DNA from: Sideroxydans sp.
Lineage (GTDB): Bacteria > Pseudomonadota > Gammaproteobacteria > Burkholderiales > Gallionellaceae
Reading direction: 5' to 3'
Assembly (NCBI GenBank): GCA_027310665.1
Contig: DAIDAJ010000052.1
Location: 1 to 35,285 of the forward strand
Length of the DNA: 35,285 nucleotides
A program made the translations under genes and the position numbers. This document shows, piece by piece, positions 18,573 to 33,142 of this stretch. The notes below the pieces were generated by a model. That model had not been told where the DNA came from. It saw nothing but the letters and a program-made list of their open reading frames with translations, and searched no databases. Positions within the stretch are counted from its first letter, which is position 1. Every line of letters starts with the position of its first letter.

Positions 18573-19096
18573 GTTATTTTTTTTGGATATTCTTGATTTG
18601 ATCTTATACAAACCGCAATTCAATTTACGCCTGTGCCCCAGGCACAATAAAACCGCTCCCCCATATTTTCTGGAAGCAGGTGCAAGCCTCGGTTTGTCCC
18701 CTTTATACGGAAAAATACCAGTCAGGAACCCGCACATTCAAGACCATTCCGGCGATCCGGTTCCCCTTTGACGACCATCTTATACCCAATGGCTGGTTAA
18801 TCACATATCCCATGATACCTATATAAGAGCCTAGTACTTAACGAGAATTAAACCTTTTAATTGTCATGGTTTTTTCTTTTCGATCGATGGCAATCTGCCC
18901 TTTGCGATACAACTTCATAACAGATTCGGAATTTCGAAATACTCTGCTGCCCAATGGCAAACACGCAGGCGGGAAATTGAACTCACTATTCCGTAGAAAA
19001 TTGCCGAGCTCATTGCCGATACAAGGTGTCCGATATGACCGGAACAGTTTCGGGTAAAATGACCGTCTCGAATTCAAATCATCCTGAGGACTTACC
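18573..19096. other. Intergenic region between the histidine kinase gene and rpe; no gene seen
   Basis: About 520 bp of more AT-rich sequence between divergent genes. A perfect short hairpin lies at 18632-18646 (TGTGCC/GGCACA, loop CCA). A candidate -10 TAAAAT for rpe lies at 19055-19060 without a clear -35. The open frames here (about 60-86 codons) show no protein-like pattern and no ribosome binding site. It probably carries both promoters. Confidence 0.5.
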
Positions 19097-19783
19097 ATGT
19101 ATCAGATCGCACCCAGTATCCTTTCCGCCAATTTCGCCAGGCTAGGCGAGGAGGTTGACAACGTGCTCGCCTCCGGCGCGGACATCGTGCACTTCGACGT
19201 GATGGACAACCATTACGTGCCCAACCTGACCATCGGTCCGCTGGTATGCGAAGCGTTGCGCAAACATGGCGTGACCGCACCGATCGACGTGCACTTGATG
19301 GTCAAGCCGGTGGATCGCATCATCCCCGACTTCGCCAAGGCCGGTGCGACCTACATCACCTTCCATCCTGAAGCTTCGGAGCACATCGACCGCACCATCG
19401 GCCTGATCAAGGAAAGCGGCTGCAAGGCCGGGCTGGTATTCAACCCCGCCACCCCGCTGGACGTGCTGGAATACACGCTGCCCAAGCTCGACATGGTATT
19501 GCTGATGTCGGTCAACCCCGGCTTCGGCGGCCAGAAGTTCATTCCCTACGTGCTGGACAAGGCTCGCGCGGTGCGCAAGTTGATAGCTGCTGGAAATCAT
19601 AATTGCCGCCTGGAGACCGACGGCGGCGTCGGCCCTGCCAACATCAGGGAAGTGGCGGAGGCGGGCGTGGACACTTTCGTGGCCGGCTCGGCCGTTTTCG
19701 GCAAACGCAACGAACAGGACAAGAACCGCTACGACACCATCATCGGCGAACTGCGCGCCGAGCTGGCGAAAGCAAAGAAATAA
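19097..19783 (+). CDS. rpe: Ribulose-phosphate 3-epimerase
   Basis: A 228-residue TIM-barrel enzyme interconverting ribulose-5-P and xylulose-5-P (pentose phosphate and Calvin cycles). Visible motifs are [69 protein letters not shown] and the phosphate-binding GGVGPANI...VAGSAVFG. The metal-binding His and Asp residues sit in these motifs. A GAGGA Shine-Dalgarno sequence lies 6 bp before ATG 19097. The stop overlaps the gph start by one base (TAATG). Confidence 0.97.
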
Positions 19784-20469
19784 TGGGTTTCAATAATTTC
19801 CCCCTGCCCATCTCGGCCATCGTCATCGATCTCGACGGAACGCTTTTACATACCGCACCGGAACTGGCAGAAGCAGCCAATCGAATGCTGCGCGACATGG
19901 GACGTCCGCCCGTGTCGCAGGACCTGCTGATGAGCTATATCGGCAACGGCATCTCGTGGCTGGTGAAGCGTGCGCTGACCGGCGACATGCATGCCGAGCC
20001 GGATGCCGCGCTGTTCGATAAGGCCATGCCGGTCTTCGAGAAGCATTACACCGATCTGCTGCTGCAAAGCAAACCCTTCGCCGGCGTGGTGCAAGGACTG
20101 GATGCGATGAAGGCGGCCGGCTTCAGGCTGGGCTGCGTCACCAACAAGCTGGCGCGCTACACCGAACCGCTGCTGAAAGGGATCGGCCTGTCGCATTACT
20201 TCGACATCGTGCTGTCCGGCGATACGCTGCCGGAGAAGAAGCCTCACCCGATGCCGTTGCTGCACAGCGCCAAGTTCTTCGGCGTGCCCGTCGAGCACTT
20301 GCTGCTGATCGGCGATTCATTGAACGATGCCTTGGCTGCACGCGCTGCAGGCTGCCCGGTCTTCTGCGTGCCGTATGGTTATAATCACGGCGAGCCGGTA
20401 GATGGATTGGACCTGGATGCAGTGATCGCCGATCTGCCCGGCACATTGAAACTGATCGAACGCGCTTGA
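19783..20469 (+). CDS. gph: Phosphoglycolate phosphatase (HAD family)
   Basis: A 228-residue HAD phosphatase that removes phosphate from 2-phosphoglycolate, a product of Rubisco oxygenation and DNA-end repair. Motif I is IDLDGTLLHT (nucleophile Asp and second Asp), motif II is in LGCVTNK, motif III lysine is in EKKPHP, and motif IV is LIGDSLNDALAA. The alpha-helical cap domain lies between motifs I and II. The start ATG 19783 shares a base with the rpe stop, so the two are translationally coupled in the conserved rpe-gph-trpE arrangement. It ends 3 bp before the Trp leader peptide. Confidence 0.94.
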   Translation: MGFNNFPLPISAIVIDLDGTLLHTAPELAEAANRMLRDMGRPPVSQDLLMSYIGNGISWLVKRALTGDMHAEPDAALFDKAMPVFEKHYTDLLLQSKPFAGVVQGLDAMKAAGFRLGCVTNKLARYTEPLLKGIGLSHYFDIVLSGDTLPEKKPHPMPLLHSAKFFGVPVEHLLLIGDSLNDALAARAAGCPVFCVPYGYNHGEPVDGLDLDAVIADLPGTLKLIERA

Positions 20470-20472
20470 CCG

Positions 20473-20520
20473 ATGACACATAACGACCTCTCCGCGAAGA
20501 CGACTGTTTGGCGATGGTGA
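20473..20520 (+). CDS. trpL: trp leader peptide (attenuation peptide) upstream of trpE
   Basis: A 15-codon open frame, MTHNDLSAKTTVWRW then TGA, sits 60 bp before trpE and 3 bp after the gph stop. Two Trp codons separated by one Arg codon, placed at the very end of a mini-gene before trpE, are the hallmark of a tryptophan-sensing leader in ribosome-mediated attenuation. No strong Shine-Dalgarno sequence is seen, so it may be translated by coupling to gph. The peptide itself was recognised by pattern; its translation is an inference. Confidence 0.72.
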   Translation: MTHNDLSAKTTVWRW

Positions 20521-20553
20521 CTCCGCATCATCGGATGCTGCGCCCACCCATCG
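20512..20553 (+). promoter_or_regulatory. Candidate trp leader RNA fold
   Basis: The Trp-codon segment CGATGGTG (20512-20519) can pair with CA(C)CCATCG at 20545-20553, leaving one bulged C. It encloses a perfect small hairpin GCATC-ATCG-GATGC at 20524-20537. A ribosome stalled on the Trp codons would block the outer stem. No U-run follows, so a classical intrinsic terminator is not evident and control could instead act on trpE translation. Hand-folded only. Confidence 0.4.
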
Positions 20554-20580
20554 TCATCGAAATCCTTTAGAGAGGTTCCC

Positions 20581-22068
20581 ATGTTGTCCCCTGTTACCGA
20601 ACAAGAATTCCACGCACTCGCCAGGCAAGGCTACAACCGCATTCCGCTGGTTGCGGAAACCTTCGCCGACCTCGATACCCCGCTGTCGCTGTATCTCAAG
20701 CTTGCCAACCGTCCTTTTTCTTATCTGCTGGAGTCGGTGCAGGGCGGCGAGCGCTTCGGACGCTACTCCTTCATCGGCCTGCCTGCCGACACGCGTATCA
20801 CCGTGCGCGGCAAACGGGTCACGCTGACCACCCCCGCCGGCGAGACCACTCAGGAAGTCGCCGATCCGCTCGCCTATATCGAGGAATACCGGGCGCGCTT
20901 CAAGGTCGCGCCGCTGTCCGGCCTGCCGCGCTTCACCGGCGGCCTGGCCGGCTACTTCGGCTACGACACGGTACGCTATATCGAGCACAAGCTGGCCGGC
21001 ACGCAAAAGCCGGACGTGCTCGGCACACCCGACATCCTGCTGATGCTCACCGAGCAGCTCGCGGTGATCGACAACCTTTCCGGCAAGCTGATCTTTATCG
21101 TGTACGCCGACCCGGCGCATGCTGATGCCTACCGAAATGCGCTGCAACGCCTGGACGAATTGCAGCGCGCCCTGCGCCAGCCGGTGCAGATCCCCGACGC
21201 GCCGCAGATGCGCCGCTACGAGGCGAAGTCCGAGTTCGGCGAGGCGGCATTCAAGGCCGCAGTGGAAAGATCCAAGCGCTACATCTTCGACGGCGACATC
21301 ATGCAGGTGGTGCTGTCGCAACGCATGTCGCAGCACTTTCCGGCTTCGCCGTTGTCTTTGTATCGGGCGCTGCGCAGCATCAACCCGTCGCCTTACATGT
21401 TCTACTACGACATGGGCGACCACCATGTGGTCGGTTCCTCGCCGGAGATCCTGGCACGCCTCGAAGGCGACACCGTCACCGTGCGTCCCATCGCCGGCAC
21501 GCGACCGCGCGGCAAGACGCCGCAGAAGGATGCCGAACTGGCGGAAGAGCTGCTGGCCGACCCGAAGGAACTGGCCGAACATCTGATGCTGATTGACCTC
21601 GGCCGCAACGACATCGGTCGCGTGGCGCAGAACGGCACGGTCAAGCTCACCGACAAGATGGTGATCGAGCGTTATTCGCACGTGATGCACATCGTCTCCA
21701 ACGTCGAGGCAAAACTCAAGCAGGGCCTGGGCGCGATGGACGTGCTCAAGGCCACCTTCCCCGCCGGCACCGTATCCGGCGCCGCCAAGGTGCGCGCGAT
21801 GGAGATCATCGACGAGTTGGAGCCCAGCAAGCGCGGCATCTATGCGGGGGCGGTCGGCTATCTCGCATTCAACGGCGACATGGATGTCGCCATCGCACTG
21901 CGCACCGCCGTGGTGAAGGACGACACGCTCTACGTGCAGGCAGGGGCAGGCATCGTCGCCGACTCCGTGCCCGACAGCGAGTGGCTGGAGACGCAGAACA
22001 AGGCACGCGCGGTGCTGCGCGCGGCCGAGATGGTGCTGGACGGGCTCGATGCCCGGACGCACCGCTAG
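20581..22068 (+). CDS. trpE: Anthranilate synthase component I
   Basis: A 495-residue chorismate-utilising enzyme that, with TrpG, makes anthranilate in the first step of tryptophan synthesis. The N-terminal regulatory LLESVQGG motif (Trp feedback site) is intact. Catalytic-domain motifs are [19 protein letters not shown]-like [71 protein letters not shown] and [15 protein letters not shown]. The length is normal. The Shine-Dalgarno sequence GAGAGG (20570-20575) precedes ATG 20581, and a Trp leader peptide lies just upstream. trpG follows after 12 bp. Confidence 0.97.
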
Positions 22069-22080
22069 GGAGAAGCAGAC

Positions 22081-22650
22081 ATGTTACTGATGATCGACAA
22101 CTACGACTCCTTCACCTATAACCTGGTGCAGTATTTCGCCGAGCTCGGCGCGGACGTGCTGGTCTACCGCAACGACGAGATCACGGTGGAGCAGATCGAG
22201 AAATTGAACCCGCAACACCTGGTCGTGTCGCCGGGCCCGTGCACGCCGAACGAAGCGGGCATCTCGGTCGCCGCAATCAAACATTTTGCAGGCAAGATCC
22301 CGCTGCTCGGCGTGTGCCTCGGCCACCAGAGCATAGGCCAGGCCTTCGGCGGCAGGATCATCCACGCGAAGACGCTGATGCATGGCAAGACCTCGCTGAT
22401 CCGCCATAACGGCAACAGCGTGTTCACCGGATTGCCCAACCCGTTCACCGCGACACGCTACCATTCGCTGGTGATCGAGCGTGAGACCCTTCCGGACTGC
22501 CTGGAGATCACCGCCTGGACCGACGACGGCGAGATCATGGGCGTGCGCCACAAGACGCTGGCGGTGCACGGCGTGCAGTTCCATCCCGAGTCCATCCTGA
22601 CCGAGCACGGGCATGACATGCTGAGGAATTTTCTGGAAGGGAAGCGATAG
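22081..22650 (+). CDS. trpG: Anthranilate synthase component II (glutamine amidotransferase)
   Basis: A 189-residue class I glutamine amidotransferase supplying ammonia to TrpE. It shows [26 protein letters not shown], the nucleophile motif [15 protein letters not shown] and the catalytic His-Glu in [13 protein letters not shown]. TrpG and PabA are very similar and in many bacteria one protein serves both tryptophan and folate synthesis; position between trpE and trpD favours TrpG. The trpD ATG starts 3 bases after the trpG stop. Confidence 0.95.
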
Positions 22651-22652
22651 CC

Positions 22653-23672
22653 ATGATCACTCCACAACAAGCGCTGGTACGCCTGATCGAGCAGCGCGAG
22701 ATCTTTTACGACGAGATGCTGTCGCTGATGCGGCAGATCATGGGCGGCGAAGTCTCGCCGGTGCAGATCGCCGGCATCCTGATCGGCTTGCGCGTCAAGA
22801 AGGAGACCATAGGCGAGATCTCCGCCGCCGCGTTCGTGATGCGCGAGTTTGCCACCCAGGTTCCGGTCACGCAGCGCGAGCACCTGGTGGACACCTGCGG
22901 CACCGGCGGCGATGCCGCACACACGTTCAACATCTCGACGGCCAGCGCATTCGTCGCGGCAGCGGCAGGCGCACGGGTCGCCAAGCACGGCGGACGTTCG
23001 GTGTCTTCCACCTGCGGCTCAGCGGACGTGCTGGAGGCGCTGGGCGTCAACCTCAACCTGACGCCGGAACAGGTGGGACGCAGCATCGACCAGATCGGCA
23101 TCGGCTTCATGTTCGCACCCAATTTCCACGGCGCGATGAAACATGCAGCGCCGGTGCGCAGGGAACTGGGCGTGCGCACGCTGTTCAACGTCCTCGGCCC
23201 GCTGACCAACCCCGCCGGCGCGGACAACCAGGTGCTGGGCGTGTTCCATCCCGACCTCGTCGGCATCCAGGCGCGCGTGCTGCAGCGCCTGGGCAGCCGT
23301 CATGTGCTGGTGGTGAACGGCGCGGATGGCCTGGACGAGATCACGATCAGCGGGCCGACGTCCGTCGCGGAACTGAAGGACGGCCAGGTAAACGAATATA
23401 CCGTCACGCCGGAATCGTTCGGCCTGAGGTCGGCGCCGCTGGACGATATTCGCGTCAGCGATATCGACCAGGCCAAGGCCATGTTGCTGGGCGTGCTGGA
23501 CAACCGGCCGGGCGCGGCGCGCGACATCGTCCTGCTCAACGCCGGGGCCGCGATCTACGCAGCCGGCCTGAGCGTCACGCTGGCAGAGGGCGTGAAGCAG
23601 GCGGCCGGGGCGATCGCCTCCGGTGCAGCCAAGACCAAGCTGGCGCAGCTGATCCAGGTCAGCCACAGCTAA
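22653..23672 (+). CDS. trpD: Anthranilate phosphoribosyltransferase
   Basis: A 339-residue enzyme that attaches phosphoribose from PRPP to anthranilate. The diagnostic motifs are [18 protein letters not shown] (PRPP-binding), [47 protein letters not shown] (seen as [16 protein letters not shown]) and [15 protein letters not shown]. The length is standard. It is the last trp gene here: trpC, which often follows in betaproteobacteria, is absent and relA comes next after 16 bp. Confidence 0.96.
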
Positions 23673-23688
23673 TCGTTCCACCGCATAC

Positions 23689-25644
23689 GTGGTTTCCATC
23701 CAGCATCAGTTTCCTCCGCTCGCCGGACAGGACAGCGCCGACATCCAGGACTGGCTGAGCGCGTTGTCCGAGGTCTTTGCGCCCGCCGAGATGGAGGTGA
23801 TCCGCCGCGCGTGCGAGTTCGCAGCGCCGCTGTATCACGACAAGCATGAGATCACCGGCACGCCGCTGTTGCAGCATGCGCTCGGCTCGGCCTCCATCCT
23901 GATCGGTCTGCACATGGATCACGAGACCATCGCGGCAGCCGCGCTGCACGCCGTACCCGAGTATCTCGACGACTGGACCAAAGTCCTGGGCGAGCGTTTC
24001 GGGCGCAATATCACCGTGCTGGTCGAAGGTATCTCCCGGATGGAACATATCCGCCAGTTCAGCGAGATACGCAACCCGAACGCGAAGGACAAGGACGATA
24101 CCGCCGAGCAGATCGAAAGCCTGCGCAAGATGCTATTGGCGATGGTGGAAGACATCCGCGTGGTGCTCATCAAGCTGGCGGAGCGCACCCAGACGCTGCG
24201 CAACCTTTCCGGCGCGACGCCCGAACAGCAGAAGCAGATCGCGCAGGAGACCCAAAGCATCTTCGCGCCGCTGGCGAACCGGCTTGGCGTATGGCAGATC
24301 AAATGGGAACTGGAAGACCTGTCGACGCGCTACCTGGAGCCCGCGCTCTACAAGCAGGTCGCCAAACTGCTCGACGAGCGGCGCGTGGACCGGGAACGCT
24401 ACATCGCCGATGTCATCGGGCGGTTGCAGCAGGCACTGGCGCGGGCCGACATCAAGGCCGAAGTGAGCGGACGCCCGAAGCACATCTACAGCATCATCAA
24501 CAAGATGAAGCGCAAGCATCTCGATTTCGACCAGCTGTACGATGTGCGCGCAGTGCGGGTATTGGTGGACGACCTTGAGCAATGCTACGCGGCGCTCTCC
24601 ATCGTGCACGAACTGTGGCAGCCGATCCAGAGCGAATTCGACGATTACATCGCCCGTCCCAAACCCAACGGCTATCGCTCGCTGCACACGGCCGTGCTCG
24701 GCCCCCGCAACCTCCCGGTCGAGGTGCAGATACGCACCCGGCAGATGCATCACGATTCCGAACTCGGCGTGGCCGCGCACTGGCGCTACAAGGAAAACAG
24801 GAAATCCGAGAGCGGAGTGGACGAGAAGATATCCTGGCTGCGCCAGATCCTGGCATGGAAGGAAGAGTTGGCCGACAGCGGAGAGCTGCAGGCCCAATTC
24901 AAGAACGAGCTGCTGCAAGACCGCGTGTATGTGCTGACGCCGCAAGGCAAGGTGATCGACCTGCCGAAAGGTGCGACGCCGGTGGATTTCGCCTATGTGG
25001 TGCACACCGATCTCGGCCACCGCACGCGCGGCGCCAAGATCGACGGCAGCATCGTGCCGCTCAACACCAAATTGCAGACAGGCCAGCGCGTGGAGATCCT
25101 CGCCGCCAAGCAGGGCGGGCCCAGCCGCGACTGGCTCAGTCCGAGGCTCGGCTTCCTGCAGAGTGCGCGGTCGCGCGCCAAGGTGCGCCACTGGTTCTCC
25201 GAACAGAACATCGACGACAGCGTCGCACAGGGGCGCACCCTGCTCGACCGTGAGCTGCACCGCGTCGGCGTGACCGACATCAACCAGGAGAAGCTCGCGC
25301 AGAAACTGCGTTTCAACAAGCTGGACGAGCTGCTCGCCGCCTTGGGCCGCGGCGACATCACGCCGCGCCGCGTCAGCCTTGCCATCGCTCAGGACACGCC
25401 ACCGGTGCCGCGCAGCACTGCCAGCCAGGCACTGCCGACGGCGAGTGGGAACGTGCTGATCGAAGGCGTGGGCAACCTGATGATCCGCACCGCCCGATGC
25501 TGCCATCCGGTCAAGCCGGACGCCATCATCGGTTACGTCACACGCGACCGCGGCATCACCATCCACCGCCGCGATTGCCCGTTCATGCAGCGGGTGCCGG
25601 AAGAACGCGAGGACAGGTTGCTGGAAGCACGCTGGGCAACGTGA
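23689..25644 (+). CDS. relA: RelA-type (p)ppGpp synthetase lacking the C-terminal ACT/RRM domain
   Basis: A 651-residue Rel/Spo protein, shorter than the 744-residue E. coli RelA. The N-terminal HD-type domain is degenerate: the catalytic HD is replaced by ALHAVPEYLDD, so hydrolase activity is probably absent. The synthetase domain has GRPKHIYSIINKMK and EFDDYIARPKPNGYRSLHT, whose acidic ExDD signature marks RelA rather than SpoT. A TGS domain (RVYVLTPQGKVIDLPKGATP) and the conserved-Cys region (ARCCHPVKPDAIIGY, HRRDCPF) follow. The protein then stops at EARWAT, just where the ACT/RRM domain normally starts. No ACT sequence is found in any frame downstream. GTG 23689 is used as start; no clear Shine-Dalgarno sequence is seen. 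Confidence 0.88.
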   Translation: MVSIQHQFPPLAGQDSADIQDWLSALSEVFAPAEMEVIRRACEFAAPLYHDKHEITGTPLLQHALGSASILIGLHMDHETIAAAALHAVPEYLDDWTKVLGERFGRNITVLVEGISRMEHIRQFSEIRNPNAKDKDDTAEQIESLRKMLLAMVEDIRVVLIKLAERTQTLRNLSGATPEQQKQIAQETQSIFAPLANRLGVWQIKWELEDLSTRYLEPALYKQVAKLLDERRVDRERYIADVIGRLQQALARADIKAEVSGRPKHIYSIINKMKRKHLDFDQLYDVRAVRVLVDDLEQCYAALSIVHELWQPIQSEFDDYIARPKPNGYRSLHTAVLGPRNLPVEVQIRTRQMHHDSELGVAAHWRYKENRKSESGVDEKISWLRQILAWKEELADSGELQAQFKNELLQDRVYVLTPQGKVIDLPKGATPVDFAYVVHTDLGHRTRGAKIDGSIVPLNTKLQTGQRVEILAAKQGGPSRDWLSPRLGFLQSARSRAKVRHWFSEQNIDDSVAQGRTLLDRELHRVGVTDINQEKLAQKLRFNKLDELLAALGRGDITPRRVSLAIAQDTPPVPRSTASQALPTASGNVLIEGVGNLMIRTARCCHPVKPDAIIGYVTRDRGITIHRRDCPFMQRVPEEREDRLLEARWAT

Positions 25645-25921
25645 AAGGCTGAGGAGGCGCTGACTTATTTGGTGATGAGCGGCTCAAATCGCCCCATAGT
25701 CGGCCACCAAGAAAATTTCATTAGGGGCACACTTCTCGGCCGCAGCAGTCATTTATAACTAAAGGGTGTTACTTCCGCTTTTGACACAAAACCGTCGTTC
25801 AAATATGTTCTGCCTAACGCCTGATCTTCGATGCGAATGGTCGTAGGCGATCAGCTTCCGTAGGCAACAAGCGTCTGCTTCTTGGGTGTATCGAACAAGT
25901 TGTGTCCAGTTAATTTACAAC
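25645..25921. other. Gene-free, degenerate sequence at the island boundary after relA
   Basis: No coding frame is supported here. At 25768-25807 lies a roughly 40-bp sequence whose reverse complement matches 28953-28993 (shared GAACGAC and GCGGAAGTAAC blocks with a diverged centre). The stretch looks like decayed mobile or intergenic repeat DNA and begins exactly where the relA ACT domain is missing. Confidence 0.5.
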
Positions 25922-26620
25922 TTAGCTACGTGCATGAACAGCATCAGCAGCCAGTGCATTCCAACGCAGTGAACGCGAACGCCAATGCTCGCCGATGCTC
26001 TGTGTAAAATCGGGGTGAACCAACTTGGCGCGGGCAATCAACCAGTCTTTGTCTTCATATCTGAGATAGATGCCCTCGCACCCTCCCTCGCGATAGGCGC
26101 TTGGTGTCGTTGCAATCATCTGCTTGAGCGCACTCAGCCGGTAATGTCCCATTCCTATCTGATGAACGGAGCGCAAGCCAAGCTGGGATGCCAACGCATT
26201 ACGCCGGGTAGTACTCCAGAAGCGCCGAGCATTTCGATCATATACATCGAATACCAAAAAATAATCTGGCAAGCCGGGATACTCCAAACTATGCACGGCG
26301 GCGGCCCATTCACCGAACAACATCAGGGATTCGCCCAGCTTTTCGAATAGGACTTCTTCGTGAATCGCCAGCCATTCATTCAGGCGAGTAAACTGACCTG
26401 TAAAGGGGTGTGAAAGGTACTGTCCACGGTTTTGCGCCCTGACTTCGCCACTTCCCACTGAAAATCCCAGATTGGCACCATCGACTTTTTCTTCGAGTAT
26501 TACGGCGTGCGTCAAAAATGCTTCAGCCTCGAATGCGGTCAGTACCTTGTCATCGCGCGGCGTACCGTCTCCGAGCCAGGCAACATGGGGGGTGTGCGGA
26601 AATCTAAAGAACTCGCTCAT
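25922..26620 (-). CDS. RNA ligase family protein (ATP-dependent nucleotidyltransferase fold)
   Basis: A 232-residue protein with the ordered motifs of the covalent nucleotidyltransferase superfamily: motif I EEKVDGANLGF (AMP-accepting K45 in KVDG), motif Ia RAQNRGQYL, motif III LFGEWAA (E104), IIIa YFLVFDVYD, IV EGIYLRYED (E182, G183) and V ARAKLV (K199). These fit the RNA_ligase (Rnl2-like) family rather than DNA ligases; no OB-fold domain follows. It would seal RNA breaks with 3'-OH and 5'-phosphate ends. ATG 26620 overlaps the stop of the PIN gene by 4 bp, making it the third gene of a coupled operon. Confidence 0.85.
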   Translation of the reverse strand: MSEFFRFPHTPHVAWLGDGTPRDDKVLTAFEAEAFLTHAVILEEKVDGANLGFSVGSGEVRAQNRGQYLSHPFTGQFTRLNEWLAIHEEVLFEKLGESLMLFGEWAAAVHSLEYPGLPDYFLVFDVYDRNARRFWSTTRRNALASQLGLRSVHQIGMGHYRLSALKQMIATTPSAYREGGCEGIYLRYEDKDWLIARAKLVHPDFTQSIGEHWRSRSLRWNALAADAVHARS

Positions 26621-27126
26621 GCCCCGAACTTGTTCTCATGAAATCGTTGAATATCAGCTTTGCACAGGAAGTCCACTTCGATCCCGTTTCGCTGAAGTGC
26701 TGGAGCCCAATCCAACCATTTTGAATCTGCCGCTTGGGCGATATGTGGCTTATCCGGGTGCGCACCAGAAACAGCAACGAATTTTCGATCAGGGGCATCA
26801 AAGTTTGCCAACTCTGCGTCATCAGGAAACGACTCAAAAACGCGCTCGTCGTGTTCCAGCAAAGACACCTGATCCACCCACTTTGCATTACATCGGTTGT
26901 TCAGCGCCCATTTGACGAAGGCATCACCTGGCCGGTTGCCATTCTTGGGCTGGGTCTTGTTCTGATACTCAAGAAGAATCAGAAAACCATCATCGAGCGC
27001 CAATCGACCATTTTTCATGACGCTTGCCAAAATCAAGGCGCAGTTTTTAACACACTCTGGCGAAATATCCTGATGCTGGCCATTTGCCACCAGAACAACA
27101 TTGGTATCGACTACCGTAACGCTCAT
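26617..27126 (-). CDS. PIN-like domain protein (probable ribonuclease)
   Basis: A 169-residue protein. It opens with the PIN signature VTVVDTNVVLVAN (D7, N9) and has acidic candidates D46/E53 in LALDDGFLILLEYQ, D113 in APDRKFVAVSG and D134 in QAADSKWLDWA. This is the order and spacing expected of the Mg2+-binding acidic residues of PIN nucleases, which usually cut RNA single-strandedly. It is somewhat longer than VapC toxins (about 130 residues) and no small antitoxin gene is adjacent. It overlaps the ATPase gene by 4 bp upstream and the RNA ligase gene by 4 bp downstream. Confidence 0.78.
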   Translation of the reverse strand: MSVTVVDTNVVLVANGQHQDISPECVKNCALILASVMKNGRLALDDGFLILLEYQNKTQPKNGNRPGDAFVKWALNNRCNAKWVDQVSLLEHDERVFESFPDDAELANFDAPDRKFVAVSGAHPDKPHIAQAADSKWLDWAPALQRNGIEVDFLCKADIQRFHENKFGA

Positions 27127-28508
27127 TTGGTTTTTTCCCGCTGCTGCATATCCATGGCAGCAACCGTACGTGCGGTTAGATCGGCCATTTCATCACCAAA
27201 GAAATTTTCCGGCCAGTTCTTAATATCACCGTACAAATTAACTTCCAGTGGCTCCAGCTCAGTTGCACTACCAGCCCGCTTGCAGAAATAGATGGCGACA
27301 TCGTCTGGAGTGAGGTCGCCTTCCGCGATACGTCGTTGTAGGCGGTTTAGAAAGTGCTCGGAATGGCTCTCTACAATCAACTGTACGTTGCGTGCCTTGC
27401 CGTTCTCGCGCGAATGGATCGCGGAAATGAACACGTCGGCCAGTTCCGCCTGCACCTGCGGATGTAAGTGAATTTCCGGCTGCTCCATCCAGATGGTGGA
27501 ATTCGGTGGGCAGTAGAAAGCCTGAACCAGTACAGGCAAGACTTGCGAAACGCCGAAGCCAACGTCGGTGATTTTAACCTCCGGCGCCTTGGCATGGGTT
27601 TTCACCAGAACCTCATACTCCTTTCGCCCTTCGGCCACTGGCTTCACGACAAAGCTGTGGATCACGCCTAAATCCTTTAGCCAGCTGGCTACAAACTCGG
27701 CAAAAGACTGCAAGGGTTTTTTGGGTCCCCGATTAAGTTTTCGGCCTTCATTTTGTGCGGCTAGAATGGCCGCAATGGCGTTTTCACCCATCTGTCCGAC
27801 CCCCTCCGGCGTATCGCCCGACCACTGATATGTGCGTTGAGGATGCTTGCGCAAGGGGCCGAGATAACTCAAGCTGCCGAGCATGGTTTCTGTAGCCAGC
27901 GCAAAGTCAGTCAGAAATCCCGCATTCTTGAAGCGTGCCATACTGATGTCCGACATACGATAAAACTTTTCCGGCTCTTCGAGCGGCCACTTGCGTCCGT
28001 CCGCCATCACGAACCGATAGTGCTCTGAATCAAGAGAAAATTTGCGGTTCTCCCCACGAGAGAGGTCTACATCGAGCACAACTCCGTCTTTATTGGAAAG
28101 GTCGTAACGGAGAGATTGAACCTCAGGCTGCCCTGACTTGCCAGCGACAATAGAGACATCCAGTCCAAGATTGTCACCCTGGTAACGTTTGGCAGGCTGA
28201 AGCGGATCGCGCACTTCCAGCGGCTTCGGCAGAGCCCACCTTAAACCGAAGTCGAGCGAATTCGTAAGATCATGCCCATGCATGCAGTCAGCGAAAGTAC
28301 CAAGATCAATCAAGCTGCTGGTATCGCCCAGATGCAGGGCACGCTTGCGGTCAGTGGATAATGCTGTCTGTTTGAGCGCCAGCAGCAGATGACCGAGACT
28401 GCTCTTACCGGCACTATTGGCACCAAAAATCACAGTAAGCGGTGCCAGGCGGATTGAGCCGGTATCTTTCCAGGCCTTGAAGTTTTTCAGGTGCAATTTG
28501 GTCAGCAT
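27123..28508 (-). CDS. AAA/ABC-type ATPase, DUF3696 family
   Basis: A 461-residue ATPase. Walker A is GANSAGKSSL (G29-S37) close to the N-terminus (LHLKNFKAWKD, RecF/OLD-like). A signature-like segment is VGFGVSQVLPVL (about 316-327), Walker B IWMEQPEIHLHPQ (about 339-351), and an H-loop-like VESHSEHFLNRLQRRI (about 379-394). The C-terminal FFGDEMADL matches DUF3696. The catalytic Glu of DEPE-type Walker B motifs is Gln in EQPE, as I recall for this family. There is no TOPRIM or nuclease domain, so partners probably act as effectors. AGGGAGA lies upstream of ATG 28508. First gene of the ATPase-PIN-RNA ligase operon, 9 bp after the hsdS remnant's stop. Confidence 0.9.
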   Translation of the reverse strand: MLTKLHLKNFKAWKDTGSIRLAPLTVIFGANSAGKSSLGHLLLALKQTALSTDRKRALHLGDTSSLIDLGTFADCMHGHDLTNSLDFGLRWALPKPLEVRDPLQPAKRYQGDNLGLDVSIVAGKSGQPEVQSLRYDLSNKDGVVLDVDLSRGENRKFSLDSEHYRFVMADGRKWPLEEPEKFYRMSDISMARFKNAGFLTDFALATETMLGSLSYLGPLRKHPQRTYQWSGDTPEGVGQMGENAIAAILAAQNEGRKLNRGPKKPLQSFAEFVASWLKDLGVIHSFVVKPVAEGRKEYEVLVKTHAKAPEVKITDVGFGVSQVLPVLVQAFYCPPNSTIWMEQPEIHLHPQVQAELADVFISAIHSRENGKARNVQLIVESHSEHFLNRLQRRIAEGDLTPDDVAIYFCKRAGSATELEPLEVNLYGDIKNWPENFFGDEMADLTARTVAAMDMQQREKTK

Positions 28509-28517
28509 GAATTCTCC

Positions 28518-28790
28518 CTACGCTATCATTTTTGTTTGCAGGCTTTGTCTCTCCCGCTTGGGTTTATTTGCAGATTGGTCATTATGCTTGGTACAGATGC
28601 GTTCCAGCAACACACTGGCCGGTTCGTCGTTAGGGTCTTGCGGCACCAGTTCACCGCGAAAGGCTTTGGTGAGGGTGGCCGGGGTGAGTTTTTCGACTTG
28701 GGCGCGGGCGGCTTGATGGCGGTCGGCAAAGGCGAACAGGGCTTCGACGAACCAGCTCTTTTATCGCTCCAGGAATCCCGGGGGCAGGTC
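28518..28790 (-). pseudogene. hsdS: Remnant of type I restriction specificity subunit (3' end of hsdS, frameshifted)
   Basis: On the - strand, 28748-28518 encodes VEALFAFADRHQAARAQVEK then LTKAFRGELVPQDPNDEPAS and VLLERI before a TAG stop. This is the highly recognisable C-terminal coiled-coil end of HsdS. Immediately upstream the frame breaks: IKELVRR is readable one frame away (28790-28749), where intact HsdS proteins have EQKEIVRRVEALF-like sequence. The gap fits loss of one 5-bp CGTCG unit. The DNA-recognition domains are missing. The remnant lies just before the ATPase gene, as if the three-gene cassette once sat behind hsdS in a type I restriction locus. Confidence 0.82.
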
Positions 28791-28800
28791 TAGCAAAGTA

Positions 28801-29077
28801 GCATTCACATCCACGCATATCACCCCCTCCCCGAAAGTTATTCCGCCGCCGCGAAGTGTACCTCAATATATTCGGTATATTTATGAGCAATAGTTTGTTT
28901 GAGCATATTGCGATAACCGCAGAAGTGGCGGGCGAACGATCATTATCGGTAGCATTCTCGAACGACCGCTATTTGGCACACAGCGGAAGTAACGACCTCA
29001 AGTCCTCAATGACCGCTACGGCCGAGGATACGACGGACAATAATTCGGCCTTAGTGGAAATTCAGGTTGGCAATAAA
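28801..29077. other. Gene-free stretch between the hsdS remnant and the HNH gene
   Basis: No gene is seen. 28953-28993 carries the second, inverted copy of the 40-bp diverged repeat found at 25768-25807. The 60-90 codon open frames here have no ribosome binding site or family resemblance. Confidence 0.45.
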
Positions 29078-29689
29078 TCACGAAATACGCCTCATCCAGC
29101 AGAAGCAATTTGTTCCTAATCCAAAGCCACTCTCACGCCGCCACTCGACCCAATTAAACTGCTCTTGTGCACTGTTACATTGTCGGCATAGGGGTTGGAT
29201 ATTGTCGATCGCGTCAGACCCACCCCGCGCTATTATTTTAATATGATCCTTGGTCAGACCGTCCTCTGGGACGTTTCCGCACCTGAGGCATCGATGCTCG
29301 AATTCTTCAACGAGCGCCATCCACTCTTTCTTTGTATGCGTGCCCTTGGCTCTTGCTTCCTTCATCTTGGAAGCTCTAGCCTTGCTCATTGCAGCAAATC
29401 GCTTCTTGTCGAGTTTCTTCTGGAATTCAGGAGAGTGGTACTCATCGTAAGTCATCTTGACTCCGTCGATGATGCAGAACTTCCTGTCGAAATACTGCCC
29501 CTCGATCTCGCCGCTGAGCAATTTTCTAATCTTCTCTTCTTGCTCCGCTTGTTTTTGCTCGGGAGTCTTGGGCTTCTTCTTGCTATTGTATGCGCCGCAG
29601 TTAGGGCACCACTCTGTAATGGTAGGATGAACTGTTTCTTTGCATCTCCAGCAGGCTTTCTCAGAGATGAGTTGTTGTTCTGTGCTCAT
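29078..29689 (-). CDS. HNH endonuclease with N-terminal zinc ribbon
   Basis: A 203-residue protein. Residues 13-31 form a zinc-ribbon-like element (CWRC...CPNC). A Lys-rich helical linker (about 35-125) follows. Residues 130-175 form the HNH core with two Cys pairs: HRCLRCGN (C134, C137), LTKDHIKIIARGG (D148, H149), N163, and LCRQCNSAQ (C168, C171). HNH proteins of this kind are single- or double-strand DNases found in phages, group I introns and restriction systems. The last 25 residues (WRRESGFGLGTN...) do not look family-like and may be read-through into foreign sequence. It stands alone with no clear partner gene and a weak ribosome binding site. Confidence 0.83.
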   Translation of the reverse strand: MSTEQQLISEKACWRCKETVHPTITEWCPNCGAYNSKKKPKTPEQKQAEQEEKIRKLLSGEIEGQYFDRKFCIIDGVKMTYDEYHSPEFQKKLDKKRFAAMSKARASKMKEARAKGTHTKKEWMALVEEFEHRCLRCGNVPEDGLTKDHIKIIARGGSDAIDNIQPLCRQCNSAQEQFNWVEWRRESGFGLGTNCFCWMRRIS

Positions 29690-30432
29690 GGCAACACTCT
29701 ATCATCGCCATGATTGAGCCGCTACGGCAGAATTAAACCTTAGCCAGTTTCTGTACTGTCCCCACTGCAATCACAATCGTGGCGACCTCTGCGGTCTTGG
29801 AAATGTGTACGACCGACATGAGTACGCCAGATGGTTTCTATCGCGTTGAAGATAAGCAGATTAAGTCGGAGCCGCTCAGACCTGATCTCGGTCAGCGAGT
29901 GATGATTGAGTCTCTCTCAAGGATACCCAGATCCCTTAGTTTGAGACAGCCCTGCGGGAGACTTTCAAGTCAGATGTCCCGGGGAAAGACTGAAGAGCAG
30001 ATCAATTTGATTCGAAGATGTCCGGAATTATGTGCAAGGCAGTCATCGCCATCAAATACTTGGAAGGACTGCAAAGGCCGAGAACCTGGCGGTCACAGCG
30101 ATCCAATTGGTGGTGTGTTCATGGCACAACTGAAACATTCACAGTCATAGCAAATCAACACGAATGCAAATTGCCATGTAAAACGGCTATGGCCTGAATC
30201 AACCACAGATTGCGGATACCCGATAAATGAGCTGTATATGACGCAGGTTCCCATGTCATTCGCTTTGCGTTCGGGGTCCATACCCAGCGTCTGTTCAAGA
30301 TAACTGATTTCCCAATGGCCGGGACAGAGGCTGCTGCCGCTTGCAGTCCAGTGCACTGAAATGGATTAGCCAAGATATCCAGAGCGACTTCCTTCGATCG
30401 TATTTCCTGGTGAACGTTGGATTTCGATCCCT
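29690..30432. other. Long gene-free region
   Basis: About 740 bp without a supportable gene. The longest + frame (29779-30150) starts at a GTG, has no ribosome binding site and gives a low-complexity basic protein with no recognisable motif; the overlapping - frames are equally unconvincing. The composition is lower in GC than the flanking housekeeping genes. It is probably decayed mobile DNA. Confidence 0.45.
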
Positions 30433-30870
30433 CTATGCCAGTTTCAAAGCATGGCAAACGGCTCTCGATGCAAAGGTCAATCCATGATGGGCAGGGATCA
30501 CAACCGGATTGTCGCCTGACTGAAAGATGAGCATACCCACGATAAAACTGAGCGCCGCGATGAAGATGCTCGCAAAAAAAGCCGTCCAGAATCCGGATAT
30601 CCTGAAGCCGGGTACGGCCGACGCCACCAGCAGCATCATCAAGGCATTGATCACCAGCAGGAAGAACCCGAAAGTAAAGATCGTCAGCGGGATGGTCAGG
30701 AAGATGACGACAGGCCTGATGACCGCATTGGCCAGCCCCAGCAAGAGCGCCGACATGAGCAGGGACTGCCTGTTGCTGAACGAGATGCCGTGGAATATGA
30801 AACTGGCAATCCAAAGCGATATTGCCGTGATTCCCCAATGAAGCAGAAATTCGATGATGTCGTTCGTCAT
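30433..30870 (-). CDS. Small YvlD/phage-holin-IV-like membrane protein
   Basis: A 145-residue protein with four hydrophobic helices. The sequence LLHWGITAISLWIASFIFHGI, then LGLANAVIRPVVIFLTIPLTIFTFGFFLLVINALMMLL (seen as NAVIRPVV and LTIFTFGFFLLVINA), matches the family of small four-helix membrane proteins called YvlD or 'phage holin family 4', whose role is unclear. ATG 30870 (MTNDIIEFLL) is chosen over an upstream GTG. The tail after about residue 115 (QSGDNPVVIPAHHG...) is hydrophilic and unusual for the family, so the true 3' end may have been altered at the island edge. Confidence 0.72.
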   Translation of the reverse strand: MTNDIIEFLLHWGITAISLWIASFIFHGISFSNRQSLLMSALLLGLANAVIRPVVIFLTIPLTIFTFGFFLLVINALMMLLVASAVPGFRISGFWTAFFASIFIAALSFIVGMLIFQSGDNPVVIPAHHGLTFASRAVCHALKLA

Positions 30871-30967
30871 GTAAGCGCGTCCGGAATCCACTTTGATTTT
30901 ATATATTGCCACTCGGTGACCCCGGTGAGAAGGTCATCATCACGATCGCGCCTGATCCAAGGCCGGA

Positions 30968-31732
30968 CTAAGGTTTGACGAAGCGCAATGCAAAGCTGTC
31001 TGTGGGCATCTTCATATGGAAGAACGGCTGTTCTCGCGGATCCGACGGGTTATGCAGAAAATCACCTTCTTGTTCGAGCGTGAAACCGGCTTGCTGCAAC
31101 TCGTCCAGGACGACCGCTTCGTCGATGCGATGGAGCGTCTTCGCAACCGTAATGCCCTCGCCCTTCTTCGCCGAATGATCGATAACGACCAGGTGGCCGC
31201 CGGATTTCAGCGCACCGAACAATCGCTGATTCATCCTGACACGATCAACCGGCATATAGGCGATATCATGGTAATTCAGAACAATGGTGATCAAGTCCAG
31301 CTTGGGCACATCGCCCGGAACCGGGTCGTCATAAGGCCTCACTACCGGGATGATGTTCGGCTGCGGATGGTCTGCCAGCCGTTCGCCCAATTCGGTTCGT
31401 GGCTTGTCCGCTTGCGCCCATACCGTTCCCTTGCTTCCCACTGCCAAGGCCAGCAGTTGCGTGGTATATCCCCTGCCAGTGGCGACGTCCAGCACCATCA
31501 TGCCCGGACGGACGTTTGCAAACCGCAGGAATTCCACCGGCTTGCGCGCTGCGTCCGCCAGTCGATCGTCTTCCGTTCGTATCGGACTCACAGCCACCTG
31601 CCGGTAAAGCGCGTCCAGATCCTGCGATTCACCCGAAGGCGTCGCGGCATTCCCGTTCACGCTCCAGACCAGCCCGGTGAAGGCCAGCACGACGGTCAAT
31701 TTGGCCAGGTTGGATAAATATTGTGCAGACAT
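30968..31732 (-). CDS. Exported class I SAM-dependent methyltransferase
   Basis: A 254-residue protein with an N-terminal signal peptide (hydrophobic core LAKLTVVLAFTGLVWSV, cleavage near NAA). The Rossmann domain has motif I VLDVATGRGYTTQLLA, then VRPYDDPVPG, ITIVLNYHDIAY and the post-motif GALKSGGHLVVIDHSAKKGEG. ATG 31732 is set by AAGGAGAG upstream. Exported methyltransferases with this layout are widespread in proteobacteria, but how they would get SAM in the periplasm is not settled. Its start lies 11 bp after the stop of the phytochelatin-synthase-like gene, so the two form an operon. Confidence 0.82.
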   Translation of the reverse strand: MSAQYLSNLAKLTVVLAFTGLVWSVNGNAATPSGESQDLDALYRQVAVSPIRTEDDRLADAARKPVEFLRFANVRPGMMVLDVATGRGYTTQLLALAVGSKGTVWAQADKPRTELGERLADHPQPNIIPVVRPYDDPVPGDVPKLDLITIVLNYHDIAYMPVDRVRMNQRLFGALKSGGHLVVIDHSAKKGEGITVAKTLHRIDEAVVLDELQQAGFTLEQEGDFLHNPSDPREQPFFHMKMPTDSFALRFVKP

Positions 31733-31743
31733 GGATCTCTCCT

Positions 31744-32442
31744 TCATTCCGAAACCACAACCAACCCTCTCGACTTGTTGCTGGTTGTATCAATGGTCGC
31801 GATCGCTTTTTGCAGTGTGTCGATCCCGACCCACGCCGGGGCATACATATACTTGGCCACATCGAGAATCAGCACGCGGTCGGACTGTGCGTCATAGGCT
31901 GCCAGCACCGACCAGTGTCCGCCGCCTTCCTGCCCCACAGCGGTACGCAGATAGTTTACCAGCACGAACTGTCCGTCATCGCCCAGTGCCTTCTGCAACA
32001 AAGTGCGCAGCCCCTTGTCATCGATGGAATCGCCGGCGATGGATACAGCCTTGACCCCTTGGCGCACCAGGGTCTGCACCATTTCATCCCTTGTCATGCC
32101 CTGGGCCAGCACGGTCTGCGGACTGATCACTTTGGCGACGTCCGGGGTGAAATAGTTGCTCTGGGTGAAGTAGGCGTTGGGAGCGTAGATCGGATCGACC
32201 GGTTTCTTGATCGGCAACGCGTTGAGTACCGTGATGGCGCTCGCAACGGAGCAATAGGTCTGGTTGATCTGCTCGGCAAACCAGGGACTCAGTTGCCAGT
32301 AATCCGCATCGGCCGGAATGCGGGCACGCAATACCTTGCCCGCATCCGAGTTCCAATAGATGAGCGCGGGCTCTGCAGCCATCAAGGAAAGCGGCGTCGA
32401 TATGAGAATGGCCAGAAAGATGATACGAGCAAGTTTATTCAT
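31744..32442 (-). CDS. Exported phytochelatin-synthase-family cysteine peptidase
   Basis: A 232-residue protein with a signal peptide (MNKLARIIFLAILISTPLSLMAA). The papain-like catalytic triad of the phytochelatin synthase family is visible: C64 in NQTYCSVASAITVLNAL, H176 in GGGHWSVLAAYD and D194 in VLILDVAKY. The C-H and H-D spacings (112 and 18) match the half-length bacterial enzymes such as Nostoc PCS. Those bacterial forms mainly act as glutathione gamma-Glu-Cys peptidases and make little phytochelatin. A GGAGAG sequence precedes ATG 32442. It is followed by the exported methyltransferase gene. Confidence 0.88.
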   Translation of the reverse strand: MNKLARIIFLAILISTPLSLMAAEPALIYWNSDAGKVLRARIPADADYWQLSPWFAEQINQTYCSVASAITVLNALPIKKPVDPIYAPNAYFTQSNYFTPDVAKVISPQTVLAQGMTRDEMVQTLVRQGVKAVSIAGDSIDDKGLRTLLQKALGDDGQFVLVNYLRTAVGQEGGGHWSVLAAYDAQSDRVLILDVAKYMYAPAWVGIDTLQKAIATIDTTSNKSRGLVVVSE

Positions 32443-32752
32443 GATGAACTCTCCAACTCAGGTCGTAGCAAGGAAAAACGTACCGCGATCACCTGCGGGT
32501 GGTGCTGAATTACTGCCTTCTTATAGCATTGGCAGTCGTTATCTGCTCGGACGGGATTGTGTATATGGCGGCGGCTTGAGTAGTGAACACCAAGGAGGCG
32601 GGCTCGATAGTTCGTGGCCCACCAATGCCGCTTTTAATACCGGACTATACAGATGCTCGGGAGAGGAAGGTAAGCGCCGCTCTCAATCTTCTCTTCGAAA
32701 TTTTGTATAACCCGGTCCCGAATAAAATCATCTCGATGGTTCGTGCAAGACC
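32443..32752. other. Intergenic region upstream of the phytochelatin-synthase-like gene; no gene seen
   Basis: About 310 bp between the hemerythrin stop and the start of the phytochelatin-synthase-like gene, both read leftward. No coding frame is supported. It probably holds the terminator of the upstream gene and the promoter of the two-gene operon, but no clear elements were recognised. Confidence 0.4.
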
Positions 32753-33142
32753 TTATACCTTCACTCCACCCAGGCGGATGTAGTCTTTTATCTGGTTGTC
32801 TGCGTACTGGATATGCGCGAGCACCCTCGCGAACGGCCAGTGGGTGAACCAGTCGGTGAACATCTCTCCACCGACATAATCCAGCTTTTCCTTGAGGTGG
32901 AGCGCTTCCTGGATCAGCTGCCTGTGCTTGTCCTTATGCGCCTCGATCTCGGGATACCCTGCTTCAGCCATCAGTTGCTCTTCGATCTCGAAATGCAGAC
33001 GCGTATACGCGATCACATCGTCGATGATCCGGTAAATGTCGATCCGTGATTCCTTGTTCTTCACGGCCTCATTCAGTTCATTTAGCATGCCGACAAGCTT
33101 CTGATGCTGCTGTTCGATCTCTGGCACATCATGCATTCTCAC
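32753..33142 (-). CDS. Bacteriohemerythrin
   Basis: A 129-residue four-helix-bundle protein with the full diiron ligand set of bacterial hemerythrins: H13 (EQQHQKL), H50 and E54 (RLHFEIEEQLM), H69 and H73 (EAHKDKHRQL), H110 and D115 (VLAHIQYADNQ). It would bind O2 reversibly at a non-haem diiron site, as an oxygen store, sensor or carrier. The N-terminus is slightly shorter than typical (starts MRMHDVPEIE), but AGGAGG just upstream of ATG 33142 supports this start. It stands alone between the MFS transporter gene and the phytochelatin-synthase-like gene. Confidence 0.92.
   Translation of the reverse strand: MRMHDVPEIEQQHQKLVGMLNELNEAVKNKESRIDIYRIIDDVIAYTRLHFEIEEQLMAEAGYPEIEAHKDKHRQLIQEALHLKEKLDYVGGEMFTDWFTHWPFARVLAHIQYADNQIKDYIRLGGVKV

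Follow-up and report, generated by a model that had tools for sequence, protein, structure and literature searches.

What is achieved by an operon that encodes an ATPase, a putative RNA cutter and an RNA sealer side by side? The question is raised by a 35,285-nucleotide stretch of Sideroxydans sp. (GenBank assembly GCA_027310665.1, contig DAIDAJ010000052.1), referred to below in its whole length as the window, in which two 4-bp overlaps join three minus-strand genes in the order AAA_15/DUF3696 ATPase, PIN-like nuclease and RNA_ligase-family protein (Table 1). An earlier note on this DNA had described this overlapping string and proposed an undescribed system for defence or RNA repair; the string itself was confirmed at its coordinates. 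Our reading is that of a reversible RNA-breaking defence module, in which infection would lead an ATPase-gated RNase to cut cellular RNA that a dedicated ligase would then reseal, and we assign to it a probability slightly below one half (about 0.47). What the analysis shows directly is the genes with their predicted folds and intact active-site residues, how they are linked and how partners are lost, and part of a defence context.

The three genes are a real unit, as samples from the phylum, the class and a contig scan agree. Among 398 genomes of the phylum the PIN gene occurs in 15, of which 11 hold ATPase, PIN and ligase together and four hold ATPase and PIN only. The ligase profile matches 17 of the 398, and the 11 genomes that score at least 240 bits are exactly the same 11 trio genomes; the other matches are one fragment (G007, 180 bits) and five of 135 bits or less. 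In a class sample of 274 genomes the PADLOC model HEC-03A, which recognizes the PIN protein, was found in five, of which three also have the ligase and two lack it. A contig collection was scanned with the PIN alignment alone and the best 80 of 329 PIN relatives were analyzed; as these are the nearest relatives, the tally leans to the window's own type. The trio order is shared by 60 of them, one with a broken PIN frame, and the 79 loci left after dropping L054 (a duplicate of L010 with all three genes) divide into 59 trios, 13 loci with PIN and ligase but without the ATPase, four with ATPase and PIN but without the ligase, and three at contig ends that are undecided. This recurrence in 11 of 15 PIN genomes and in 60 of the best 80 loci, the very check that the earlier note had named, refutes chance neighbourhood in one genome, for which we found no point in favor and to which we give practically no weight. 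Note that a Polaromonas locus among the 59 trios (L034:7001-7509) has its PIN frame in two pieces and its ATPase and ligase frames whole.

None of the 105 tabulated PIN loci, some of which may come from the same species, is without at least one partner (three are undecided on one side). Trios were found in records titled as seven phyla, the titles naming several proteobacterial groups, Verrucomicrobia, Myxococcales/Polyangiaceae/Sorangium, Planctomycetota, Acidobacteria, Desulfobulbaceae and Rhodococcus; many of these records are metagenome-assembled genomes (MAGs), for which binning can mislead on host titles. Twelve plasmid records carry the PIN gene, eight of them with an adjacent ligase match over at least 95% of the query and one, from Aeromonas caviae, with an interrupted ligase; the last three are from Acinetobacter soli, the one inspected being without a ligase. 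A blastn search of E. coli genomes with Aeromonas operon DNA gave no match.

The gene identities given in the earlier note are supported. The ATPase, as proposed, is of the DUF3696 type, with matches to AAA_15/DUF3696 and to PADLOC HEC-03B (3.3e-129); residues G29, N31, G34 and K35, which we take to be the Walker A motif, and E342, E345 and H382 are invariant in 27 homologues. The ligase reaches 106.8 bits against PF09414 (cut-off 27), and K45, D47, G48, E104, E182, G183 and K199 are invariant in 49 aligned rows and again in a second alignment of 53 rows, so that the claim of intact motifs holds; profile match, nucleotidyltransferase motifs and fold prediction all agree on an RNA ligase. For the PIN-like ribonuclease, a predicted PIN fold, clustered acidic residues and the HEC-03A match (2.4e-20) stand on one side; on the other, no Pfam family, PIN models included, was matched up to E = 1. 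A search of PDB sequences with the PIN profile gave two chance-like matches only. With Foldseek the best E was 0.019 at a TM-score to the query of 0.46, and several top rows were titled PIN or toxin-antitoxin; a second structural list (VIA) includes non-nuclease titles, namely a Cas9-PcrIIC1 complex, the cyclodehydratase RohQ and a RuvB-like helicase.

The description as an undescribed system has to be narrowed, since the adjacent ATPase and PIN genes with their 4-bp overlap correspond to HEC-03B and HEC-03A, the candidate anti-phage pair HEC-03 of PADLOC-DB 2.0.0. The RNA ligase lies outside that listing, with no match to PADLOC models up to E = 1, and no description of the ligase-bearing trio was found in the literature searched (open-licence, partial coverage). 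The operon extends the listed pair by a third gene beyond the PADLOC models used, and the ligase is its novel, testable part. HEC denotes an Hma-embedded candidate, Hma being a helicase-methylase-ATPase system. In the window no helicase or methylase was found among the 10 neighbours scanned (stretch 18738-23688 not included), which belong to RelA/SpoT, HNH, kinase and metabolic families. According to the available part of PMC12988326, embedding in Hma is how the HEC candidates were discovered and does not form part of the models; in that of PMC13356809, HEC-03 is merely listed among the subtypes found.

Several known systems resemble the operon in part. Its ATPase shows profile similarity to Septu/retron-type PtuA chains and to PARIS AriA (1.1e-25). 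These ATPases work with a separate nuclease partner, the HNH protein PtuB and the Toprim protein AriB, and we know of no PIN partner and no ligase in either system. A relation to Menshen, suggested in the earlier note, was not borne out: of what we take to be its gene set, NsnA, NsnB and NsnC, only NsnB is fitted by the ATPase, as a second choice (1.3e-59), and neither PIN nor ligase matches an Nsn/Menshen model up to E = 1. VapBC is ruled out, as the neighbours of the PIN gene, each with a 4-bp overlap, are the ATPase and ligase genes and not a gene for a small DNA-binding antitoxin. The ligase differs from Naegleria RNA ligase and T4 Rnl2 in being a bare catalytic domain. A bacterial Rnl ligase is likewise part of Pnkp1-Rnl-Hen1, where it repairs ribotoxin-cleaved RNA together with Pnkp1 and Hen1, no nuclease being named in the abstract (PMC4411300); membership is ruled out, as the partners here are ATPase and PIN. 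PrrC and RloC also combine an ABC-type ATPase with an RNase (here a predicted one), but in these a single protein carries both the ATPase and the nuclease, a HEPN domain, and a phage RNA ligase is the remedy (excerpt of PMC3710099), whereas the operon encodes its own ligase and a separate PIN-like protein. The comparison with PrrC/RloC drawn in the earlier note is thus useful as an analogy, and membership in that family is ruled out.

In the mechanism that we propose, the ATPase would keep the PIN ribonuclease inactive and free it when infection is signalled. The PIN protein would then cut structured cellular RNA, most likely tRNA, halting phage growth, and the ligase from the same overlapping gene string would reseal the cut RNA, which would either hold the leak below harm or permit the cell to recover. 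What we infer here is the gating, the RNase activity, tRNA as the target and resealing by the ligase; repair of self-damage is the role of the ligase that fits the evidence best. That the ligase would act on PIN products is suggested by end chemistry: metal-dependent PIN nucleases leave a 3'-OH and a 5'-phosphate, although this is not undisputed, and these are the ends joined by Rnl-type ligases. As such ends can be joined directly no end-healing enzyme would be needed, and the operon contains none. In excerpts of the literature, such ligases join 5'-PO4 to 3'-OH (PMC9931718), and metal-independent RNases leave a cyclic phosphate that requires healing (PMC9503650).

A fuller version of this scheme, somewhat less probable and held tentatively, is that of a defence with its own cure. 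The ATPase-gated PIN protein would break RNA and the operon ligase would remake it, giving reversible dormancy and not death; either restraint, ATPase or ligase, would suffice to keep the PIN gene, and one lineage would have dropped the ATPase and kept PIN and ligase as a fixed chromosomal cut-and-reseal pair. That PIN is never alone in 105 loci would be explained by either restraint sufficing. In this field, RNA ligases are mostly familiar as a phage remedy against host RNases. If our reading is true, a host operon that pairs nuclease and ligase would show immunity based on reversible RNA damage, allow recovery from abortive defence to be tested directly and provide a compact RNA ligase acting beside a defined cutter.

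A quite different role for the ligase has to be considered in view of its reduction to a nucleotidyltransferase domain of 232 aa. Lacking an appended domain, it might adenylylate the 5'-phosphate ends made by PIN and thereby bar their repair by phage ligases. Phages do carry distant relatives of the operon ligase (198 records), and one viral contig holds a closer, lone copy (L097:5998-6663) with 43% identity to the operon ligases and no PIN or ATPase gene in the stretch examined. The motif residues are, however, invariant in all rows of both alignments and nothing suggests a partial enzyme; we regard such end-blocking as very improbable. Seen from the reversible defence module, the L097 ligase may hint, as a single case, that phages carry a cure or counter-measure. 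Of 46 loci on viral contigs that hold a ligase relative, three carry the trio (L096, L098, L099), and PIN gave no match in phage records at E 0.001.

The link to anti-phage defence drawn in the earlier note is supported in part of the loci by nearby defence-type methylases. A large methylase is the most recurrent neighbour cluster (10 loci among 90 with neighbours), and a profile of this DISARM/Hma-type methylase, built from four members, matches 10 of 109 loci, those four included. Nine of the ten have the ligase, among them L080, which lies at a contig end and matches weakly (52 bits), and one, from Acinetobacter, is without it. A scan of six large upstream genes gave partial-length matches to DISARM DrmMI and type IIG models for four of them and no match at 1e-10 for the other two. 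At L023 the ATPase starts 13 bp past the methylase. Two Aeromonas plasmid loci adjoin AbiEii and Hok/Gef genes, and at L013 (Acinetobacter soli) helicase-related and N-6 methylase genes adjoin the ATPase-PIN pair. In all, a clear defence neighbour is present at roughly one locus in ten, and many copies lie in other surroundings.

Several observations weigh against a reversible defence module. Recognised defence genes are a minority of the sampled neighbours: the 120 of 316 that were sampled (the 196 left out include those over 1200 aa) show few repeated families, and they match 128 PADLOC families, of which the 25 listed occur in at most three members each. As a control, 80 neighbours of ATPase-less loci gave mad3 in seven members, AriA in five, at least one of these being an ABC transporter, and one helicase; they are mostly type II secretion (T2SS), ABC transporter and metabolic genes. 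Raw PADLOC counts are no lower in this control set and do not show enrichment, so that the methylase-profile result is the firmer evidence for defence. The structural scores of PIN are modest. In the available excerpt of PMC7790460, VapC is placed alongside colicin D in a group of toxins for which cyclic-phosphate tRNA fragments would fit; ends of this kind would not suit an Rnl-type ligase, which weakens the end chemistry outlined above.

Both partners of PIN are, moreover, dispensable. The ATPase is absent from 13 PIN-ligase loci, four of the 15 PIN genomes in the phylum sample have no adjacent ligase, and on an Aeromonas caviae plasmid (L014:8499-10594) an IS256-type element interrupts the ligase, with ATPase and PIN frames whole. 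Ligase-less ATPase-PIN pairs lie deep in the tree and at scattered tips, and by eye no shared third gene was seen to replace the ligase in 11 ligase-less loci (one ending at a contig edge). Their occurrence in the phylum sample and elsewhere also speaks against a cut-and-join effector, in which PIN and ligase would remodel RNA by circularising it or joining fragments and the joined product would be a weapon and not a repair; we regard this as improbable. With regard to the defence module, PIN and ligase trees are only moderately concordant, their tree-distance correlation being 0.475 versus 0.771 for PIN-ATPase (0.421 for ligase-ATPase). All three values exceed the maxima of 200 shuffles (0.284, 0.296 and 0.265, respectively), and shared host ancestry also raises such correlations; sequences under 140, 200 or 380 aa were excluded from the trees. 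Finally, the ligases of L173, L174 and L176 pair with very divergent PINs (60-83 bits) but are placed inside the main ligase clade, where several supports are low. On this evidence the ligase appears to have been passed from one ATPase-PIN pair to another.

The 13 ATPase-less loci (L036-L040, L044, L046, L048, L051, L055, L063, L074, L078) bear on whether PIN and ligase might serve outside defence, trimming and resealing damaged or misprocessed RNA with the ATPase as an optional regulator. Twelve of them retain the pair near chromosomal gspB-like genes and genes that we presumptively name gspA-like, one with an additional frame between, and the T2SSB profile matches eight members among their neighbours. 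The ATPase profile finds no match at E <= 1e-10 in 12 of the 13 genomes, many of which are MAGs and possibly incomplete, and in the thirteenth a 561-aa frame matches weakly (70 bits). Within the clade the median dN/dS is 0.25 for PIN (54 of 78 pairs) and 0.12 for the ligase (63 of 78 pairs), with pairs of dS 1.5 or more left out, and both genes look to be under purifying selection. The PIN-ligase-only form is apparently chromosomal and vertically kept, all of which would suit such a processing role. In the PIN tree, however, the 13 loci are one clade nested among ATPase-bearing loci and therefore look like a later domestication; in the ligase tree they sit beside the window's clade (joint-group support 0.94). 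The ATPase-bearing form, in addition, is plasmid-borne in several records and, at a minority of loci, has a defence-type methylase nearby. A non-defence function is thus unlikely, and the nested position of the clade leads us to set aside a housekeeping role for the whole trio as the main reading.

The cassette was apparently inserted into the window as an accessory element: G623, a genome of the same genus, gives neither a PIN nor a ligase match and shows another frame after its RelA/SpoT gene. In the window, a RelA/SpoT gene lies beyond the ligase end on the opposite strand. The short frame directly upstream of the ATPase presumably resembles the C-terminal part of a type I specificity (hsdS) subunit. 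A 45-nt inverted repeat brackets the operon together with this remnant, its connection with the operon being unproven. The repeat has three copies in the source genome, the third on contig C38, and as a common mobile end it had no match in the other operon loci compared. No tRNA gene was found in the window, an Rfam scan of 25500-30200 gave no match at the gathering score, and promoter and terminator scans yielded no greater output than for shuffles.

Table 1. Features of the operon and its immediate surroundings in the window.
Feature	Position	Strand	Basis
ABC/AAA_15 ATPase, DUF3696 C-terminus, 461 aa	27123..28508	-	PADLOC HEC-03B match
PIN-like nuclease (predicted), 169 aa	26617..27126	-	PADLOC HEC-03A match
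ATP-dependent RNA ligase (predicted), nucleotidyltransferase domain only, 232 aa	25922..26620	-	PF09414 profile
Short frame (remnant) directly upstream of the ATPase	28518..28780	-	reading frame
Inverted repeat, left arm, 45 nt	25735..25779		80% complementary to right arm
Inverted repeat, right arm, 45 nt	28982..29026		80% complementary to left arm

Further upstream of the ATPase, positions 29078-29689 (-) encode a 203-aa HNH protein with zinc-ribbon-like cysteines (HNH domain 1.8e-10), which fits the IscB profile weakly (4.8e-8, 32.5 bits at a cut-off of 175). Within the region 30433-33142 (-) lies a phytochelatin synthase-like protein (31744-32442, 1.7e-46), close to hemerythrin-like and holin-4-2 family proteins.

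Among the five low-scoring ligase genomes of the phylum sample, G457 shows no clear neighbour frames, and in G224 and G482 the ligase adjoins a 381-aa gene that appears HD-like by eye. At L178:5858-8024 and L199:5343-7417, in two genomes, a ligase of another RNA ligase family (~310 aa) is followed by such a 381-aa gene, and the two together are a different candidate RNA repair pair.
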